Origin: Serpula lacrymans var. lacrymans S7.9
Lineage: Eukaryota; Basidiomycota; Agaricomycetes; Boletales; Serpulaceae
NCBI RefSeq assembly: GCF_000218685.1
Contig: NW_006763296.1
Span: forward strand, 1,322,907 to 1,386,906
Length of the DNA stretch: 64,000 nt
Direction of reading: 5' to 3'
Shown piece by piece: positions 10,256-21,173 of the stretch. The notes beneath the pieces were generated by a model, which searched no databases, had not been told where the DNA came from, and saw only the letters and a list, made by a program, of their open reading frames with translations. Position numbers and translations under genes: made by a program. Position 1 is the stretch's first letter. Each line of letters starts with the position of its first letter.

Positions 10256-10446
10256 ATCCTTACCACTCTGGCCTTTTGGCTTAGATCAAGTGTAGTATCT
10301 GTTCTTAATAGTTTAACCACTATTATGGAGGCACCGCCTCCATTCTTTGGTTATCTAATTTTTGCCGCCCTTGTCCTCTTGTGCTCTGCTTGCAACACGA
10401 GGGGCGTGATGACCTTGCTACTGCACTTTCCGGCTTGCGTCGTCGG
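10256..10446 (+). ncRNA. U2: U2 spliceosomal snRNA
   Basis: The RNA pairs with the intron branch site. It begins ATCCTTACC, followed by the nearly invariant block CCTTTTGGCTTAGATCAAG and TGTAGTATCTGTTCTT. The branch-point recognition GTAGTA lies at 10292-10297. Stem IIa is AATAGT-TTAACC-ACTATT, and stem IIb is TGGAGGC-ACC-GCCTCCA. An Sm-type site AATTTTTG follows at about 10357-10364. Stem III (CCTCTTGTG...CACGAGG) and a terminal stem GATGAC/GTCGTC enclose a loop TACTGCACTTTCC, close to the U2B''-binding loop of known U2 RNAs. The length of about 190 nt is normal. The 3' end is inferred from stem IV and may be off by a few bases. Confidence 0.95.
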
Positions 10447-11094
10447 GGGATCTCTTTTTGACCCTTATTCTCTTTGTTCTGCTTTCTAATGCTTGTCATT
10501 TGACATGTCATGGGGTCGGACAAATAGTCTAAGAGTTGTTATCTTACTTAATAGTAGTTTAATAAAGAATATATTTGTTCTATATTCTTTTGGTTTGCTG
10601 AGATGAATTCAATTACTATTGTTTATTTTTCTGAATTGTTTTGACTGTGTGAGTGGTGTGTTGAGCAGTTGTGGTAACGTTAGCAGAGAGGTATGTAGTC
10701 TAATGTAAATCTATGGTGCTGACATGAATAGAAACACATCCTAGGATGCGTTAGGACAGCCCTCAACTTGCTATGATGGCAAGCAAAGAGATTTGTGTTC
10801 AGATACAAGCTTGCGGTTGACATATATACTGCGAATATGAATGGAGTAACAGCATGATGATAGAGCATCAGGCCAACACCAGGACACCAGAATTACCACT
10901 CACAGACTCGGAAGTCCACGGTTCCATGGAGACGGTGAGTGTATGAGCGATTGACAATTTGACAGGTGACATGGCGGTTTGATATAACTTTGCACCTCGC
11001 CAGAAAGCGGGCAGGTTCAGGGGAGTCGACAAAGTTGTAAAAGAGGAGCCGAATAGGGTCACAGTTGATGAAAATACTGATTGGACGCAGATGA
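10447..11094. other. Intergenic region between U2 and the duplicated P450 block
   Basis: There is no supported gene. Two short minus-strand ORFs (10680-10868 and 10868-11062) have no recognisable content and are treated as chance. Confidence 0.5.
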
Positions 11095-11518: not shown

Positions 11519-11524
11519 AGATAT

Positions 11525-11777
11525 TACGGTGGATGATTGGTTACGGTTCAACTTTCGAGCCCGGCCAATGTCCGGCATAATATTTTTCAAAATCCGATGT
11601 ACCTTCAGCTATTATATTTGTATTTAGCAAAATTCGAGCAAGGCCTTTGATGGGCGATCAACGAAGATACATTTTAATTAATTTCTTTGATCCAGCGAGT
11701 GTGATTTGGGCAAAAGCCAGTGTGATGAGAGATCGAGCGAGCGTGCAATTCAATATGTCAACATAGGATTTCAAGCG
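11525..11777 (+). repeat. Left terminal inverted repeat of the transposon
   Basis: The 253-bp repeat is the inverse of 18579-18831. I found three mismatches by eye: GGTTCAAC versus GGCTCAAC, GAAGAT versus GAAAAT and CAATAT versus CAACAT. Similarity stops at GGATTTCAAGCG. The outer 16 bp are perfect. Confidence 0.95.
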
Positions 11778-11831
11778 TCCAAATACATCAAGAAATTACA
11801 AGTATTACACATATACTGACAACCCCTCTCC

Positions 11832-12645
11832 TCAAGGTAAGATCTCCACCTCACCCGCTTCGATTGTGTTCTGCATGGCTGTGATACCGGCGGAAATAGA
11901 AGGACAGCGAGTAAAAACGGCGCGGCTGACAGCGATAACGAGAGGAGAGGTAGACTGCCTGAGAAAATAGAGATGAGACAGTTTCGAAGTCGACGAGTCA
12001 AAGGTCACTTACCACGCAGCAAAGATACCAATTCTACGTCCTCTGGTGACCAAATAGAAGGGACCAGCTGTCCCAGCATCAGGAACCTCATAAACCTGGC
12101 CGAGGTATGTGCGAGTGATAGCCTGTGAGGCATTTGGCACATTACCTCCAGGTGGAGCGGCAGGGGTAGCGAGCGAGCCAAGTGCTGTGGTGAAAAGAGG
12201 AGAGCTGGTGGTGATCGGAGAAACTGTCGCATAAGCACTGGCACCCAAAGCAGGAGTAAGCGGAGAAGAGGCGGCACCCAAAGCAGGAGTGCGTGAAGAA
12301 GCAGCAGCTGAAGGACCAGATACCACAGTAGAGCTGGCGGCAAGCGACCCTTGAACTATTGAGGAAGATGGGGAAGAGCTGGTGTATATGGGACTTGATG
12401 GAGTTGAAGGGCGGGCACTGCCAAGAACAGCGGACATCATGAGCATAGCGTTGCTCCTACTCAAGGTTACGGATGAGAGGAGAGAAAGGAGGATGTCTGG
12501 AGGTACACGTAAGTTAGTGCAATAATCAGAAACATGAGAAGGCCTTACTCATAGTTTCTTCCTCGTCGCTGAGGCAATCTTCACTCACGGAGCGTTCAGG
12601 CTGCTTGGAAGAGTTTGAACGACCAGGGGGAGGAGATTGAGTCAT
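11832..12645 (-). CDS. Transposon-borne protein with RNase H1 N-terminal (viroplasmin-like) domain
   Basis: The start at 12645 gives MTQSPPPGRSNSSKQPE, an acidic stretch SEDCLSDEEE and then a long Ser/Ala/Pro/Thr-rich linker. The C-terminal ~60 residues read GPFYLVTRGRRIGIFAAWQS and then VIAVSRAVFTRCPSISAG and MQNTIEAGEVEILP. This matches the pattern of the RNase H1 hybrid-binding / Cauli_VI fold (YxVxxGRxxGIFxxW...V.G...A.F). The intron at about 11938-12012 splits the Trp codon (GCGTG|G). A second intron lies near 12480-12550. The stop is at 11832-11834. There is no catalytic RNase H domain. The role may be binding RNA/DNA hybrids or nucleic acid for the transposon, which is inference. The domain call is from motif recognition only. 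Confidence 0.7.
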
Positions 12646-13359
12646 TGCAATTTGGAAGGAGGAGGTAAGTATGTCTGGATGATAATTGTGAACTCACCCG
12701 TACCTTTTATAGCTGTTTGCTTGAGGCAGCATAGACTTACAGCCCATAGTTGACAATTATTGAGATCTACAAACACGGCAGTCTGACAGAGTTGCAGAAT
12801 TTTCATGCGTGAGAACAATAGCTAAGGTCCAACAAATCAACATCACGTGTGTACTTCACGATCTCGGAATAATCAGCTGTTCAGACAGCACTGTAAATCT
12901 TTTCATGCAATTCTGGCGACACATTCTTGAAGAGCTTCGCGTCAACCACATGCTCACGCCAATACAGTAATGCACAGTCAGTTCCAGCTCTTTCTTGTGG
13001 TCATATGTCTCATATTAGCCCGCACTAACCAAATGATTCAACGCAAAGCCAAAACAATGGTCTCCGCCGACGCACAATGGAATCCCATTGTACTCACATG
13101 CTTGGAGGATCAAGGAGATCTCAAAGAGACTGGAAGGTACAATTCCCATATTAAATTACAAATAAACTCGGTGTGAGTTGCTCCTTACAGCATCTGCACA
13201 GTTGTGCATTCCAGAACTCAAGTTCTCGGGCCCAAAGCATGATTCCATAGAAACATTCATTGTTGTATTTAGCTATTCTATGTACAATACAATGATTTGA
13301 TATCCAAAGTGCATTTCAAGAAAACAAGAAAGACCAGAACACATACTAAAAGGCCTAAG

Positions 13360-15255
13360 CTAATCCGAGTCGTCTGTCCACTCATACTCAAAATCTGTAT
13401 CAGCTTCGTCAGATGAGTAGCCCCCGGTGTTCTGTGGTGCATCTCCTACAACGCGCCTCCGTTGCCGGTGGGGTGGAAGCTCCATGACTGGCATGAATTC
13501 GGACTCATCCTCCTCATTAGAGTTCACTGAAAGGGCCATCACAGTACGCAACTCCATGTTGTTTGGCTGATCTCGGAACTGCTGGAGTAAGTGTAAATAG
13601 ATGTCCCATATGTTTTCTCGGCCAACTTGAGGGTAGTTGGCAGCATCCCAGAATGTGCGTGCCTGTAACGAAAAGGCCGGCGGGACCAGATGAAAAACAG
13701 GGTGATCGGGTGGTGCATACTTGTCTCGCACTTCTGTTAGATACGGCGGATGCACCTTAACCTGTAGATGTATGTATTATAAGTATATGACAAAGTGGAA
13801 ATGATACTATGAACTTACAGCAAAATTGCGTGACTCAAAAAGCTCCGGGTTCTTGAAGATATCTACAGGGCGTCCATGAGGTAGTAACTTGTGTGAGTTT
13901 CGTCGGGGCTTTGAACCGTTGAACCTCTCAATGAAGCAGTTGAGTTCTTGCTGTATCCAGGGGATAAATACATAGTGGAAGACTAGTCTACAGGTTTGTG
14001 TCAGTTGTGGCCGCTTTGCTTAGGTAAATGGATATACGCAACCGTTGAAGAGCATCGTCAGCATCATAAAGGCCCTCGTTGACCCCCCAGTCAAGGAGAG
14101 CCTCAAATCCCGGCGCCCAACGTCTTCGAAATTGGCCCCAAAAGATCTCAGGCTTAATGTTCCGGTGAGATCCTTTGAACGTATGTTGCAGGGTCTTGTC
14201 TAAAGCCGGGTCTTGCATATGACGAAGTAATGTATGGCCGTTTGCGATACCATTGTTTTCAGTGCCGGGGTCACTTTGTGTGATTAGAGGCATCCCTAGT
14301 ATAAGTCAGCAATTGGCAGCCAAGCAGTTGAAACACCGGAGAAAGAGACTCACCACCCAATCTCTCCACGACATCACAATACCATCCACATATCAGACGC
14401 GGATTATGGTTAGTCCACCAGACTTTGAGCCAGAGTACATAGCCGGAGAAGGGCTCGAGTCCAACGTGAAAAAAAAGCTGAAAGCGTCTCCACTTATCAT
14501 GCTGGTCAAAACACCACAGTTCATTGACACCTGCTGTCCAGAAATAACTACGCTTCAGCCGGCGTTTTCGACGTCCTTTTACTTCGTCTGGATGGTGTAG
14601 ATTCATGTAGTCTAGTATTACCTGCCTAGTATACTAACGTCCTTGTGACTGCCACTGTGTGAAAAGTGAAACAACTTACCGAGGCACCATCACCCTTTCC
14701 TCTTGTCGCAAAGTCACTCTCATATCGTGTGACCCCTGGTGAGGGAACCGCTCACGAACACGTTCAATGGTAGGCCCCACACTATCAACTGAGTGTGCCT
14801 GGCCCCGAGCACTCTTCAAGCCCCAAACCATCCGTTTTTTCTTCAGTAAAGCGAGACTATAGTTAATCAAATGTGTCAGTGTATTGTAGTATTACAGCTA
14901 GAAGGCTTACGAAAATGAGTAGCGGTCCGTGTCATAGTAGTCCTTGAGTTTAGTGACAATTTCTGGATTTGTGTATCCATCTGCGACGAATTGTTCCACC
15001 AATGGTCGGATTAAAATGTCTGGAGCTGTGAGAAAAGGACAGAAAGTGAGCATTACACCCTTGGAGTGTCGTTTATGCAAGCCTACCAGGGGATACCTTA
15101 TACCCATTGGTACCTTGAGGGTTAGGCATGGCCTGCAGGGCGTTGACAGTCCTGGATAGCGTTAGCACTTGGCTGATGCACGTGGGGCACTGCAATTTGA
15201 ACACTCACCTATAGGATGCACAGTCCAATAGTACACTTCCTATTTGATCCACAGC
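13360..15255 (-). CDS. DDE integrase-type (rve-like) transposase, 5' end unresolved
   Basis: This is the likely transposase of the element. Exons joined by short introns give AVDQIGSVLLDCASYR (first supported exon, up to 15255), APDILIRPLVEQFVADGYT, a block with KKKRMVWGLKSARG, and the catalytic core. Core acids are visible: D in ELWCFDQHDKW, D in ITQSDPGTENNGIANG and E in NIKPEIFWGQFRRRW, with the spacing of a DDE integrase fold. Downstream are FHYVFIPWIQQELN and KLLPHGRPVDIF. This architecture is that of basidiomycete 'integrase core domain' proteins. The C-terminus is acidic (EYEWTDDSD, stop 13360). No HHCC zinc knuckle or LTR is present. The start codon, probably between 15255 and 15700, could not be fixed. 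Confidence 0.85.
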
Positions 15256-15713
15256 CTGTTCAGTGTAAGCAGTGGAGTCAGTTCTTCAAGTGATCCTATG
15301 GGCAGAAAGGATATGGAAGATCCGCTCAATAGACACTTGGATACGCACTTCAGACAAAACCGTAAGGCTAATCAGATCGTGTTTGCACGCAATTCATTTA
15401 ACCGGTGCCTGCCTCTTCCTCATTTGTTTTCACTGACATTATCTCCGCAAAGATCTCCCATCTCCTCATGTCAATTTGCAATCACCAGCTTTGACATATC
15501 CATATTGATCCTTGTCCGCGTGTTGTTCGAGGATGGCCCATTGGTGAGTCGCCAGCCACTCAGATTGGCAAAGTCCTCATTGTTATCTTTGTGCCGAGGA
15601 GTTCTCAAATTTGACTCGACTCGACCCAAATCCATTCGGACTACAACTCATCTTCAAGGATCCATATAAACTACACCAGGAATGGGGGGAGAACAGTAAG
15701 TAAATTAGCCGCC

Positions 15714-18541
15714 ATGGACTTCACACCCACTATCGAAGGCCCACCAACTAAAAGTTGTCATCGTTGTCGTACAGAATTTGATAAGTCTGTCCGGTTCTTG
15801 TATATCAAGGGTAGGGATGGGACCGGTCGCCACTGCTGTTCAGATTGCGTCGAGCATTATCAGCGCAAGCGTGCGGAAACTGGAGAACGTCATGGTCATA
15901 GTACCAGTGCAATATCTGGTGAAATTGTCGGTATGTCTGATTGTCTTCTGTAATTCAATGTATATGTTAAGGATCAAATCTAGATTTCACGAAAGTGGCT
16001 TCCCGGGCACATGGTGTTGATGCCGACTCGCGCCAGGCTCTTGTCAAGGCTTCTTCGGCCGCACAACGTGGCGGTGAGTAAAATTTCCAGCTCACCTGTG
16101 CGTGTTCAAGTTACTTACCAAACACACATTATGAAATCCCAGAACAGTCATTCCCTAGGCAGCATATTGGGGTGGGACATGCTACATCTAGCGTTATGCC
16201 TCCCCCTCTTATCCCCTCGTCTGCTAGTGTCAGTGCTGATAGCGTCTCCCAAGCCATAGGATATACTCAGAACCATGCATTCCACGCCCACCACCGCACG
16301 AAAATGCTAGCATCAACAGTAGCTCCTCAACGTCAAGTCACAATCCGGATAGCTCTCCATCATGTGAAGGACGAAGGAAAATCTGGAACAGAGCTGGTTG
16401 GGGTGAGTCTTTGGGTACTTCAATATTTCAAGGATACTCACATGTACTATTATTTGAGAATATTGAACGAGACATTACAGTACCGCTCTCTATTAAATGT
16501 GGCCAACTACGCAACATAGTGATTGAACACCTGAAGCGTTTGTGGGTGGTCTGGTCTTGTGACCATCAGCTGGCACTCGAGTCTTTACAGATGCTGAAGG
16601 CTCCATTACTCCTCATTTACGACCCCGAAGAGCCTCATCAATACTCTGAGCGGCTGGTCCTTCACGATTTTTTCTTCCGCACATCAGCAAAGGACAACAT
16701 GCCCAAGTTTTCACCAAACGTGAAAGTTCCCATCATTCTCTTGATGTCAAAGGAGGAATTTGAAGATGTCTTGCTATGGAAGGAAGAAGATAGGCATGCC
16801 AAAGCACGCTCACGCAATGAAGAGGTTCAGAGCCCCGGAATATCGTCAGACGATGATGATATTGGTGGTCCGATGGACAAGGTTATACATTTTACTTACT
16901 TTTACTGCGCTATACTTACAGCAACTGGCCTTACTAGATATTCCTTGCAGCAACACGTGGTGGGAAACGAGCTAGAAAGACTCGTGTGCGAAAGGCGCCA
17001 GGCCAATCTTCCATCCCCGCACGTGAGTCGGTATCTGTGCGTTCAAAAGCACCAGTGTCAGAGGAGGTATGCCAATGGCCCTCACATTATTGGAGACGAT
17101 ACTTACCACATGTAGGGTGAATATGACAGTCGTAGTAACAATACACGCAGCACAGCATCAATGTCAAGCCTATTCCACAGCAAACACTCCATCAAGACGT
17201 CTGAACTACGCCCCCTCACTCCCTCAAGCTCTAGCAGCCAATCACTGCCCTCAAGACTTTTCTCCAAGGCTGCTACTAATCCCAATATCCCGCCATTCAG
17301 CATGCCTGACAAGGCAGTTCTTGAGCGTGTCATGAAGGCACAAGGAGATGTTCGACGCCTAGCAAAGCCGATATGTAAGTCAACCTATATTTCTATCTAA
17401 AACATCTATTAACGTGCTAGTGAAGTAAATACGGACATAGGAATCTATGTCCTGTTCCTCGTCCCTTCGATCCCATTCACTGAGCTTCTAAAGAAGCGGG
17501 TCCCTTTCGATGTCATGAGCAAGGTCAATCGCCCTCTAGTCACTTTAACAGTTGACTGCAGCTCAAAAGCAATGCTGGGGCCAGCCGGTAGCTTCAAGAC
17601 ATGCCACCCAGCGTCATATGATCTAACTGAAGCTCTGCCAGCAGAGGAAAATATTCTACAGGTAGAGGCTATAGTAGCAAAACGTTGCTTTTACAGAGAA
17701 ACAGTACAGGGAGCCGAAAAGAGTGGTACACCATCAAGTCCTTCAGGCGGGCGCAAACGACTGGCCATCAAGGATGAGCTAATGAAGATGCTCGACGAGG
17801 CTAACTGCCTTTACTGGGCAACAAGCCTGTTGGCTTTAGTTTATAACTTCGTCGACGACAAGCTTATTCGAAGGCCCCTTGACTGTCCTCCCCCGGCAAT
17901 CCCCCGACTTCGAGTCGTCCACGCCGCTTTGGCCATCCCCCAAGACAGCAGAGAGTTGCGTAATGCCGTTTATCTTCTCGAGGAGAAGATAAACGGTAAC
18001 TTCGTGAAGTATATCAATAACAATAGTGCAGCTCCTCGGCACAAACTTGCTCCGCCTGAACTGGAGATTGCAACCTTCCTATGCTTCGCACAACACACTC
18101 AATATCATTTCTCGCAAGGCCTTGTGTTCATCTCAGATTTTCAAGGTAAGTTAATATAAGCTAGTCTCTTTTGCTTTCCTTTTCGTACTTACATTTGACT
18201 TGTCAGGGTCCGGTGGAATATTGACTGACTGCCAGGTTATCACTACCAAGTAAGGCTCTATTACCTCCATGTGGTTGGTTCTCATCCTTTCCCAGAGACT
18301 TTGCCGATAATTTTGGCGAAGGAAACTGGACGGCGACGTTAGACAACTTCCCCTTGTTGCACAAATGCAACCAGTATTGTGTATATTTCGGACTCCCTTC
18401 CTTGCAGACAGCAGTATGTTTTCTTTTTCTGATGGATCCTTTCTACTACATCTCATGTCACCTCTTTTTTCACAGAGTTCGGCTACAAAGATGAGAACAT
18501 CACAAGAGATTGACATCATGTCCAGTCGTGTTCGTGGCTGA
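15714..18541 (+). CDS. Alpha-type (atypical) protein kinase encoded inside the transposon
   Basis: The N-terminus MDFTPTIEGPPTKSCHRC carries a possible zinc-binding CxxC...CxxC pair (CHRC and CCSDC). Ser/Pro-rich linkers follow, then a C-terminal alpha-kinase domain from about 17450. Family blocks seen are IYVLFLVPSIPF, GPAGSFKTCHPASYDL (nucleotide-binding strand), CLYWATSLLALVYNFVDDKL, IPRLRVVHAALAIPQ, GLVFISDFQGSGGILTDCQV, FADNFGEGNW, and the zinc-binding HKCNQYCVYFGL. The last exon ends SSRVRG* at 18541. Introns are small GT-AG. One predicted junction (17374/17441) would create TGA, so either my splice choice there is wrong or the gene is broken. Phosphorylation of the transposase or host proteins is speculation. 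Confidence 0.8.
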
Positions 18542-18578
18542 GAGGGATTTTTTTTTACATGACATGTACTTACTGTAT

Positions 18579-18831
18579 CGCTTGAAATCCTATGTTGACA
18601 TGTTGAATTGCACGCTCGCTCGATCTCTCATCACACTGGCTTTTGCCCAAATCACACTCGCTGGATCAAAGAAATTAATTAAAATGTATTTTCGTTGATC
18701 GCCCATCAAAGGCCTTGCTCGAATTTTGCTAAATACAAATATAATAGCTGAAGGTACATCGGATTTTGAAAAATATTATGCCGGACATTGGCCGGGCTCG
18801 AAAGTTGAGCCGTAACCAATCATCCACCGTA
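18579..18831 (-). repeat. Right terminal inverted repeat of the transposon
   Basis: This is the inverse partner of 11525-11777, of the same length (253 bp). It ends 123 bp before the CYP-A start codon, so its outer edge lies in the CYP-A promoter. Confidence 0.95.
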
Positions 18832-18954
18832 AGATATACCCCTTCCTTGATATTGACGCTACCGAGATGATGTACCTTCAGCGCATATAATAGCAGCATC
18901 CTTTTGTTCGGTGGTTAACTCAGACGCAATATTTTGTCCTCCCCTCCCCCTTGA

Positions 18955-21173
18955 ATGGCAGCCATTATCTATCTCACCGTTTACTTCCTTCTCTCTATCT
19001 CCGCACTAGAGTTTATCAGGCGTTTGGCAAAAAAATCATTCCACAGTCACAAGCCACTACTGCCGCCCGGTCCTTCGCCTCTCCATATAGTGGGAAATGT
19101 GCTTCAGATCGACACTCAAGAGCCCTGGATCACTTACACGAACTGGGGAAAGACATATGGTATTTCTTGCCCCTCTTCGTACCTATGCATGCCTAAAGTA
19201 TCTTCTTCGATGATGGCTGAAAGGTGATATCGTCTACTCCCGTTTTCTCAACCAGGACGTTATTATTATCAATTCAGAGAGAGTGGCCAAAGATCTTTTG
19301 GACCTTCGCTCGAAGAATTACTCTGACAAGCCGGTCGTGGCTTCTCTTGAGATGTGAGTGCACCATACGTCTAAAGCTCCTACAATATTCCATCGTAGCG
19401 ATATTTGACAGATTTGGATGGTCGTGGAACACGATTGCACTCAACTATGGCGACACTTGGCGACAGCATAGGCGGGTGTACCACCAGGCTTTTCGAGCAG
19501 AAGCAGCGTCCAAGTACCGTCCTCTTCAAATGCGCAAAGTGCACCAGTTATTGATCAACTTGCTCGAGGCACCCGATGCATTTGCCACTCACTTCAGCAC
19601 GTATGTCTCCTGGATGAAATACCTCGTCAAGGCTCCCCGTGCATACTTACTTCCACAGACTGTCTGCATCGATTATCATGGCCGTCACGTACGGCTACCA
19701 TCCATTGCCCCGTAACGACCCTCTTGTGACACTTTGCGATACCGCAGTCGCACTAGGTAACGAGATACTGACACCCGAGAAGAGCATCATACTTGGCGCT
19801 TTTCCATTCTGTAAGGGTTTTTTTCACCCAAGCATCATAGCTATCCATCGCTGTCGTTTATACACTTATATCCCATACAGTGCAGCGTATTCCTGCATGG
19901 TTTCCTGGGAGCATCAAGCCAAGGATCCTAAGGTGCCGCAGGCTGACTTCAAAGATGGTCGAAACGACATTCCAGTACGCCAAAAACAACATAGTAAGTT
20001 TAATCATGATCCTTCTTGACGGTTTCTCGGTATTGAGTCTAGCATAGGCCTCTAACACAGCAGTTAAATGCATGGTCTCTGATGTACTCGGCCGCGGAAA
20101 AGGCGACGATCCTCAGCTCGAGCAGGTTCTTAAAAATGCTTCCGCCACTGCATACGGAGGTGAGGCGCCAAATGAACGATCATCCTTTAGTGCTGTTTTA
20201 ATTGATATATGCCAATATCCCTCACCTCGTACAGCTGGATCAGACACTGTAAGATATGCAGTCTTCGACTGTGGCATCTCGATTGAGATTATCGCCTAGA
20301 CCTCATCATCGTTGCTCATATTCGTACTTGCTATGGTACTTTACCCGCACGTTCAGGAGCGAGCTCAAGCAGAGATTGACGCTGTCGTAGGCCGCGATAG
20401 GCTTCCTCGATTTGATGATAGGCCTTCATTGCCATACATTGAAGCAATCCTTCGCGAGACCCTTAGATGGCACCCTGTCACACCATTGGGTAAGTGCCCC
20501 CTTCACCGACGTGGCCAGAGTCCTTGCTACTAGCGTAACATCTATTCAACAAGGTGCTGCACATGCTGCCACAAATGCCGATGTGTATGAAGGATATCAC
20601 ATCCCCAAAGGTTCGTGCAGATCAAAACACGTAAGTTATGCAGTATTTCATCTTATCCATCGTTCTGCAGGTGCAACGGTGATCCCAAACGTATGGTCAG
20701 CCGTCTTTCACTCCATGCACCATCATCAGGTAAGCTAACGTAGTTTTGCGCCATAGGGCAATGTCGCAGAACGAAGAGAAGTACCCAAATGCATCGGAAT
20801 TCAAGCCGGAAAGATTTATCACCCCAGATGGCAAATTCGTAGAGGACAGTGTTAGTTATGCATTTGGCTTTGGAAGGCGCATCTGTGTAGGCCGTCACGT
20901 CGCCGACGCATCAATCTGGGCAGGAATGGTGTCCATGTTGTCCATATTTAGGTTTAAGAACCTCAAAGATGAAGACGGAAAAGATATAAAAGTGAACCCA
21001 CAATGGGTCACTGGGTTGACCGCGTGAGTGTTGTGCAGCTTCGCTGGCTATCCTTTTTTTTACTATCATGCGGTAGTCACCCAGTGTTCAAGTGCTCTGT
21101 TGAGCCACGCTTTCCAGAACTGAGTTCGGCCAGTCTCGAGCAGATGATAACGAGTCATGAAATTTACGCCTAA
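18955..21173 (+). CDS. Cytochrome P450 'CYP-A', OrdA/CYP64-like
   Basis: This is a heme monooxygenase of the microsomal type. The start at 18955 gives MAAIIYLTVYFLLSISALEF, a membrane anchor, then the hinge LLPPGPSPLHIVGN. Helix C has YGDTWRQHRRVYHQAF (WxxxR present). A 14-nt microexon at 20235-20248 encodes AGSDT of helix I. ExxR is ETLRW, PERF is FKPERF, and the heme loop is FGFGRRICVG (Cys ligand). The last exon ends at 21173 (MITSHEIYA). All P450 hallmarks are intact across roughly ten GT-AG introns. It is clearly more distant from CYP-B, -C, -D and -E than they are from each other. The substrate is unknown. The upstream promoter is truncated by the transposon at 18831. Confidence 0.88.

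Follow-up and report, generated by a model that had tools for sequence, protein, structure and literature searches.

A complete, recently mobile IS3EU-type DNA transposon of Serpula lacrymans that carries an alpha-kinase gene

Within a 64,000-nucleotide stretch of the Serpula lacrymans genome, here called the window, an alpha-kinase gene lies beside a transposase gene between two long TIRs. This raises the question of whether the kinase is captured cargo or a standing part of a transposon, both of which had been offered in the original prediction, made from the DNA sequence of the window. The element at window positions 11525-18831 is a complete DNA transposon of 7,307 bp with the termini TACGG..CCGTA (Table 1). 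Outer TIRs of 253 bp with about three mismatches and a duplication of AGATAT had been predicted; both were found, the mismatches being located at TIR positions 23, 142, and 230.

The genome was searched with the TIR, which matched 21 ends with 99-100% identity, plus two that are diverged. These represent 11 copies of the window family, in addition to the two diverged ends. An exact 6-bp TSD was present in 9 of the 10 two-ended copies, and all TSDs differed from each other; the lone exception, C21:160256, has its left flank in common with copy C21:116403. Because of the 21 near-identical ends and the exact TSDs, the TIR structure is not a product of chance, and the predicted recent insertion is borne out by the near-identical dispersed copies. 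Solo TIRs or short non-autonomous copies were not detected in the genome beyond these copies and diverged ends at the sensitivity of the TIR search. Far from the TIRs never enclosing the kinase, all seven copies with a readable interior (of 11) carried it inside the TIRs, at different sites. The window element is thus confirmed as a complete, recently mobile DNA transposon with an alpha-kinase gene, and its near-identical copies make it a promising choice for establishing a working transposition assay.

Table 1. Features of the transposon and its flanks, in window coordinates.
Feature	Position	Strand	Basis
Left TSD, AGATAT	11519..11524	.	read in sequence
Left TIR, 253 bp, begins TACGGTGGATGATTGG	11525..11777	+	repeat comparison and genome search (23 places)
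Third gene, 3 exons (12645-12549, 12496-12013, 11958-11832), 235 aa	11832..12645	-	gene model; weak PF01693
DDE integrase-type transposase, 7 exons, 467 aa	13360..15129	-	gene model; PF24764; conservation; fold
Alpha-kinase gene, 10 exons, 774 aa	15714..18541	+	gene model; PF02816; domains from model of Boletus homologue
Right TIR, 253 bp	18579..18831	-	repeat comparison
Right TSD, AGATAT	18832..18837	.	read in sequence

The transposase matched the profile PF24764 ('integrase core domain') with an E-value of 2.7e-12 and 47.2 bits (cut-off 26); together with an integrase-type fold, this agrees with the DDE integrase-type enzyme that had been predicted. The database protein P0006 (476 aa) is 98% identical to the transposase model. 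Conservation across 18 proteins points to D152, D211, and E252 (P0006 numbering) as the probable catalytic triad. Up to and including the start of the core, P0006 has just one cysteine, C151; therefore, a CC pair and hence an HHCC motif is absent. Retroviral integrases and the transposases IstA and TnsB showed 8-15% sequence identity to the transposase among the matches listed. The enzyme of the element differs from them by another N-terminal helical domain and a conserved E-x-x-W past the second aspartate.

The kinase matched PF02816 with an E-value of 2.8e-17 and 63.8 bits (cut-off 21.3) and keeps the catalytic and zinc motifs VAK, DFQG..LTD, and H.CN..C, so that its prediction as an alpha-kinase was correct. 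Splice sites in the linker of the gene model are uncertain, with 5,632 open alternatives. A model of the Boletus homologue predicts an N-terminal zinc-finger-like region (CxxC..CCxxC), a ubiquitin-like domain, a disordered linker, and the alpha-kinase domain. Among the nearest solved folds are those of eEF2K, TRPM7, and MHCK-A, kinases with host-regulatory roles. These alpha-kinases possess channel, calmodulin-binding, or WD40 parts; in contrast, the kinase of the element is transposon-borne, and the predicted zinc-finger-like and ubiquitin-like region takes the place of those parts.

IS3EU/GingerRoot elements are described with TA..TA termini, usually 6-bp TSDs, and an integrase-like transposase without HHCC motif (PMC10045372); fungal IS3EU have termini TAYGG..CCRTA and TIRs longer than 30 bp (PMC10045372, PMC12730594). 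The window element possesses all these features, including the absence of HHCC upstream of the core, and is on this basis assigned to the IS3EU type. Ginger1 and Ginger2 with their 4- or 4/5-bp TSDs (PMC10045372) and KDZ (Zisupton) with 8-bp TSDs (PMC12730594) were rejected, since the TSDs found here comprise 6 bp. For TET+ IS3EU families, Kojima (2025, PMC12730594) states in passing that transposase and alpha-kinase genes are oppositely oriented, as they also are in the window element. Found in rusts and in the truffle Tuber indicum, the TET+ elements likewise have 6-bp TSDs, TIRs longer than 30 bp, and TAYGG..CCRTA termini, and their TET/JBP gene is proposed by the author to allow escape from methylation-based silencing (PMC12730594). 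In contrast, the Serpula element resides in a mushroom and has no TET/JBP gene between transposase and kinase, whose divergent start codons lie 584 bp apart; it is therefore IS3EU, but not the TET+ form.

The original prediction named no described element with this set of genes. As Kojima (2025) states the opposite-orientation pair, the transposase/alpha-kinase combination is not undescribed; with regard to the third gene, the term 'RNase H' does not occur in the main text of that paper (PMC12730594). The word 'kinase' is likewise absent from the main text of the IS3EU/GingerRoot paper (PMC10045372). The third gene, predicted to encode an RNase H1 N-terminal-like protein, could be modeled, but the domain is a weak match to PF01693 (RNase H1 N-terminal, Cauli_VI) under the cut-off (E 0.004, 17.8 bits, cut-off 21). 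This gene was found again downstream of the transposase at 7 of 13 other IS3EU transposase loci.

The association of kinase and transposase was analyzed across the Serpula lacrymans genome. Among 29 kinase-gene loci, a lower bound with 58 of 146 candidates scored, 21 have an IS3EU transposase locus no more than 25 kb away. All 21 pairs are arranged head-to-head, with a gap below 5 kb in 19. Another four kinase loci showed other transposon linkage. At C14:367k, a C-terminal transposase remnant (46 aa, 54%, E 3e-8) lies upstream; at C13:284k, the third gene lies head-to-head; C2:1711k is within its own TIR element with a different integrase; and C21:117k is a partly readable copy of the window family. 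No transposon partner was found in 6.9 kb upstream of C2:2798k, nor at C15:220k, C5:1982k, and C5:1821k (loci of about 3.2 kb plus a genome-wide search); the tie of these four to transposons is given by the tree only. In this kinase tree, all six partnerless loci included nest within the transposon-kinase clade. Tree and neighborhoods show transposon genes, not an ordinary chromosomal kinase hit by a chance insertion.

Conversely, 8 of 29 transposase loci are without a kinase locus within 25 kb, most of them short fragments and one a masked copy. Four PF24764 integrase loci (C3:1298k, C14:428k, C3:856k, C4:466k) also have no kinase locus within this distance; the kinase therefore does not accompany every integrase of the PF24764 type, a profile which as a genome probe was insensitive in the face of introns and missed the window's own transposase. 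Complete elements with TIRs and TSD enclose both genes in further families on C15 and C14 (both with exact TSD) and on C13 (TSD 5 of 6), and in a diverged second lineage the two genes stand tail-to-tail at two loci. Outside Serpula, 8 of 16 kinase homologues have organism and same-size contig in common with an IS3EU transposase.

Kinase and transposase distances are correlated (Mantel r 0.855, P 1e-4, 13 families). The dN/dS ratio of the kinase domain is 0.08-0.22 between lineages (finite dS) and 0.63-0.70 between young paralogues; for the transposase, it is 0.09-0.27 and 0.59-0.65, respectively, with deep dS values of 1.3-1.6 being near saturation. Linkage, correlation, selection, and tree favor the alpha-kinase as a standing part of the element over chance cargo.

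We consider it highly probable that the element is an autonomous, recently active cut-and-paste transposon of the IS3EU type and that the kinase, of predicted activity, is its long-standing accessory enzyme; TIRs, TSDs, near-identical dispersed copies, and intact reading frames are the basis for autonomy and activity. The transposase with its integrase-type catalytic fold would attach to the TIRs and carry out insertion with a 6-bp stagger. Comparison shows that the kinase has accompanied the transposase for a long time, fixed head-to-head and selected while the element moves. It presumably serves the element, and the putative substrates that we favor are the element's own proteins: most likely, the kinase would phosphorylate the transposase, the third protein, or both, thereby controlling timing or amount of transpososome work. 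The zinc-finger-like and ubiquitin-like domains may aim it, and the common 584-bp divergent promoter region would co-express both genes.

Alternatively, the kinase may phosphorylate host factors such as chromatin, repair, or translation proteins, countering silencing as TET/JBP is thought to counter methylation. This is an appreciable possibility, clearly below an even chance: in TET+ IS3EU, an enzyme presumed to act against silencing is encoded between the transposase and kinase genes (PMC12730594), and the related folds mentioned above are host-regulatory, but no host target is known. Linkage, selection, and correlation fit it equally well and therefore do not separate it from a mechanism directed at the element. 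It is quite unlikely that a host kinase was captured once and then carried as a passenger, to the benefit of the host or of nobody. Fungal transposons do acquire cargo, and TET/JBP genes have switched superfamilies (PMC12730594); however, the uniform head-to-head arrangement, the correlated distances, the presence of both genes in the diverged lineage, and the nesting of the partnerless loci all speak against it. Furthermore, a dN/dS of 0.6-0.7 between young paralogues indicates that the host does not guard kinase copies once they have settled. The idea that, in the window alone, a transposon inserted by chance across an ordinary chromosomal kinase has practically no probability, as nothing was found in its support and the kinase inside the TIRs of all readable copies rules it out.

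It is unusual for a cut-and-paste transposon to have a protein kinase among its constant genes, and this raises a testable question, the transposon's need for phosphorylation. The opposite orientation of transposase and alpha-kinase is already in print; added here is the kinase as a standing part, from linkage, correlation, and selection. The original prediction also named an expansion of alpha-kinases in Agaricomycetes, for which the analysis covered the Serpula genome. In print, rusts are described as having a highly expanded set of alpha-kinases and Microbotryomycetes as having none (PMC4469406), and PF02816 is among the enriched domains of wheat rusts (PMC5295586). With a somewhat less than even chance, fungal IS3EU in general may be a three-gene machine of transposase, alpha-kinase, and small RNase H1-N-like protein; its kinase would regulate transposition and predate the divergence of the elements of rusts, truffles, and mushrooms, and the 'expanded' alpha-kinases of rusts and mushrooms would mostly be transposon genes. 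Should these alpha-kinases indeed be transposon genes, masking them would have to precede any counting of kinase families or adaptation. If the accessory-enzyme explanation holds, the alpha-kinase expansion in Serpula would largely be a by-product of IS3EU multiplication. A recently active element with a kinase as regular equipment can explain the kinase numbers in Serpula, and perhaps in its relatives, and would provide a concrete cause for an expansion which genome papers report without one.

The element lies at the position given in the original prediction. The TIRs are 253 bp long with 3 mismatches, AGATAT is present on either side of the element, and three genes lie between the TIRs. The small gene and the transposase gene share one strand, and the kinase gene is oriented head-to-head with the transposase. 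To the left, at a distance of about 1.1 kb, is a U2 spliceosomal RNA gene (RF00004, 113.4 bits; window positions 10260-10452). On the right side, ORFs that begin about 120 bp beyond the element (window 18955-19715) resemble by eye the start of a cytochrome P450; the two pieces of them that were tried had no match in Pfam.

Genes of the window element, with window positions of their starts and Pfam matches
Gene	Start	Direction	Pfam match
Alpha-kinase	15714	rightward	PF02816, E 2.8e-17
Transposase	15129	leftward	PF24764, E 2.7e-12
Small (third) gene	12645	leftward	PF01693, E 0.004, below its cut-off

Searching the Serpula genome (29 contigs, named C1, C2 and so on, 42.6 Mb) with the TIR, as had been proposed, gave 23 matches and revealed further copies. 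The matches comprised 11 left-type, 10 right-type and two diverged ends, and both ends were present in 10 copies. Nine of these carry an exact 6-bp TSD, all nine being different (TGAGCG, CGCTTG, TCCCTT, TAATCT, AGATAT, GTTTGT, AATATT, TGATAA, AGAGCG). The tenth, C21:160256, is without TSD and has a left flank identical to that of C21:116403; on this small contig, copies have thus probably been duplicated or have recombined with each other. The copies on C11, C12, C13:824k and C21:160k showed zero differences from the window copy over 7,033 of 7,307 bases compared; two of the stretches compared in the C5:1949k copy contained 3 and 7 mismatches, and the C5:2322k copy had a few small gaps. The predicted kinase was present in all seven copies with a readable interior, the interiors of the other four of the 11 copies being partly N; the third gene was found in 11 of 11.

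The original prediction had considered that the alpha-kinase could be captured cargo or a standing part of the element; the results favour the latter. Kinase matches (58 of 146 candidates scored) were merged into at least 29 kinase-gene loci including all 23 PF02816 matches; C9:1021k and C1:3749k match the N-terminal kinase region only, not the catalytic domain, and one further locus, C13:536k, lies beyond the 29. Transposase matches (84 of 84 candidates scored) were merged into 29 loci. With a limit of 25 kb, chosen after the coordinates were known, a transposase locus accompanied 21 of the at least 29 kinase loci. All 21 pairs are head-to-head, 19 with a gap <5 kb. Upon removal of the seven window-family copies, 15 of 22 kinase loci were paired, again all head-to-head (15/15; binomial P ~2e-17, the 25-kb windows covering 3.5% of the genome); PF02816 matches alone gave 16 of 23. 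Four of the eight unpaired loci showed other transposon linkage, bringing the transposon-linked loci to 25 of 29, and the remaining four are tied to transposons by the tree alone. Eight of the 29 transposase loci had no kinase locus within 25 kb, as was also observed for the PF24764 integrase loci C3:1298k, C14:428k, C3:856k and C4:466k; therefore, the kinase is not an obligatory companion of the integrase, at least where remnants are concerned.

Kinase and transposase were also found between related TIRs in elements on C15 (1001192-1014788, exact TSD GGCCTG), C14 (602912-618293, exact TSD CAATCT) and C13 (~632576-639746, TSD matching at 5/6 positions). The C14 element seems nested in an outer pair of TACGG ends (C14:602304-618739, flank match 5/6). 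A more distant element, C2:1709669-1714155 (L080:2170-6655), has 100-bp TIRs that are 92% alike and also start with TACGG, and a 5-bp flank repeat, ATGTC. Its integrase (PF24764, E 0.0025, below cut-off) lies tail-to-tail with its alpha-kinase (PF02816, E 1.8e-4); the element is a diverged IS3EU-like one. Such a tail-to-tail pair recurs at C13:536-538k, and at C3:3137k the integrase stands alone.

Beyond the 11 copies, the third gene matched at 13 loci; at seven of them it is co-oriented with a transposase and lies directly downstream of it, with gaps of 0.8-11.6 kb (tested against the 16 transposase loci left after exclusion of identical copies and short fragments, P ~2e-9). Another of the matches, at C13:287k, forms a head-to-head pair with C13:284k, a kinase that lacks a transposase partner, and weak remnants are present inside the C13 and C14 elements. 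No mention of it was found in passages on IS3EU from openly licensed papers.

Outside Serpula, a transposase homologue from the same organism and a contig of equal length was found for 8 of at least 16 kinase homologues (Boletus edulis, five Suillus pairs, Grifola frondosa and Trametes maxima), the transposase side comprising 28 of 103 hits, including all from kinase-bearing species. Contig identity was inferred from the equal lengths and some contigs exceed 1 Mb, hence this evidence is weaker than that of the Serpula pairs; two pairs have close locus tags (A0H81_05042/05045, EDD22DRAFT_783730/783750). Among openly licensed main-text passages, a single relevant statement on an alpha-kinase in such transposons was found, by Kojima (2025) on TET+ families; these passages are silent on what the kinase does, on the third gene and on kinase expansion.

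Phylogenetic analysis placed 18 of 19 Serpula kinases in one clade (support 99/99), and all six of the partnerless loci in the tree fall within it. The remaining kinase, C18:475k, clusters with a Pleurotus pulmonarius protein (P0123) on long branches, yet a transposase lies head-to-head with it at a distance of 3.6 kb. P0123 is named 'Eukaryotic elongation factor 2 kinase' (eEF2 kinase) but may be a mis-annotated transposon kinase. Kinase and transposase distances were correlated (Mantel r 0.855, P 1e-4; 13 families, 77 of 78 pairs), helped by two close paralogue pairs. Between lineages with finite dS, dN/dS was 0.08-0.22 for the kinase domain and 0.09-0.27 for the transposase, the lowest ratios resting on dS of 1.3-1.6; dS of the other pairs was saturated. 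The young pairs C13/C14 and C3/C5 gave 0.63-0.70 for the kinase domain and 0.59-0.65 for the transposase, and the N-terminal part of the C13/C14 kinase 1.29. Any role of the kinase in the element is, from sequence data, a putative one. In our reading, selection would keep both genes in the moving element and ease in a settled copy, as for an element's own genes.
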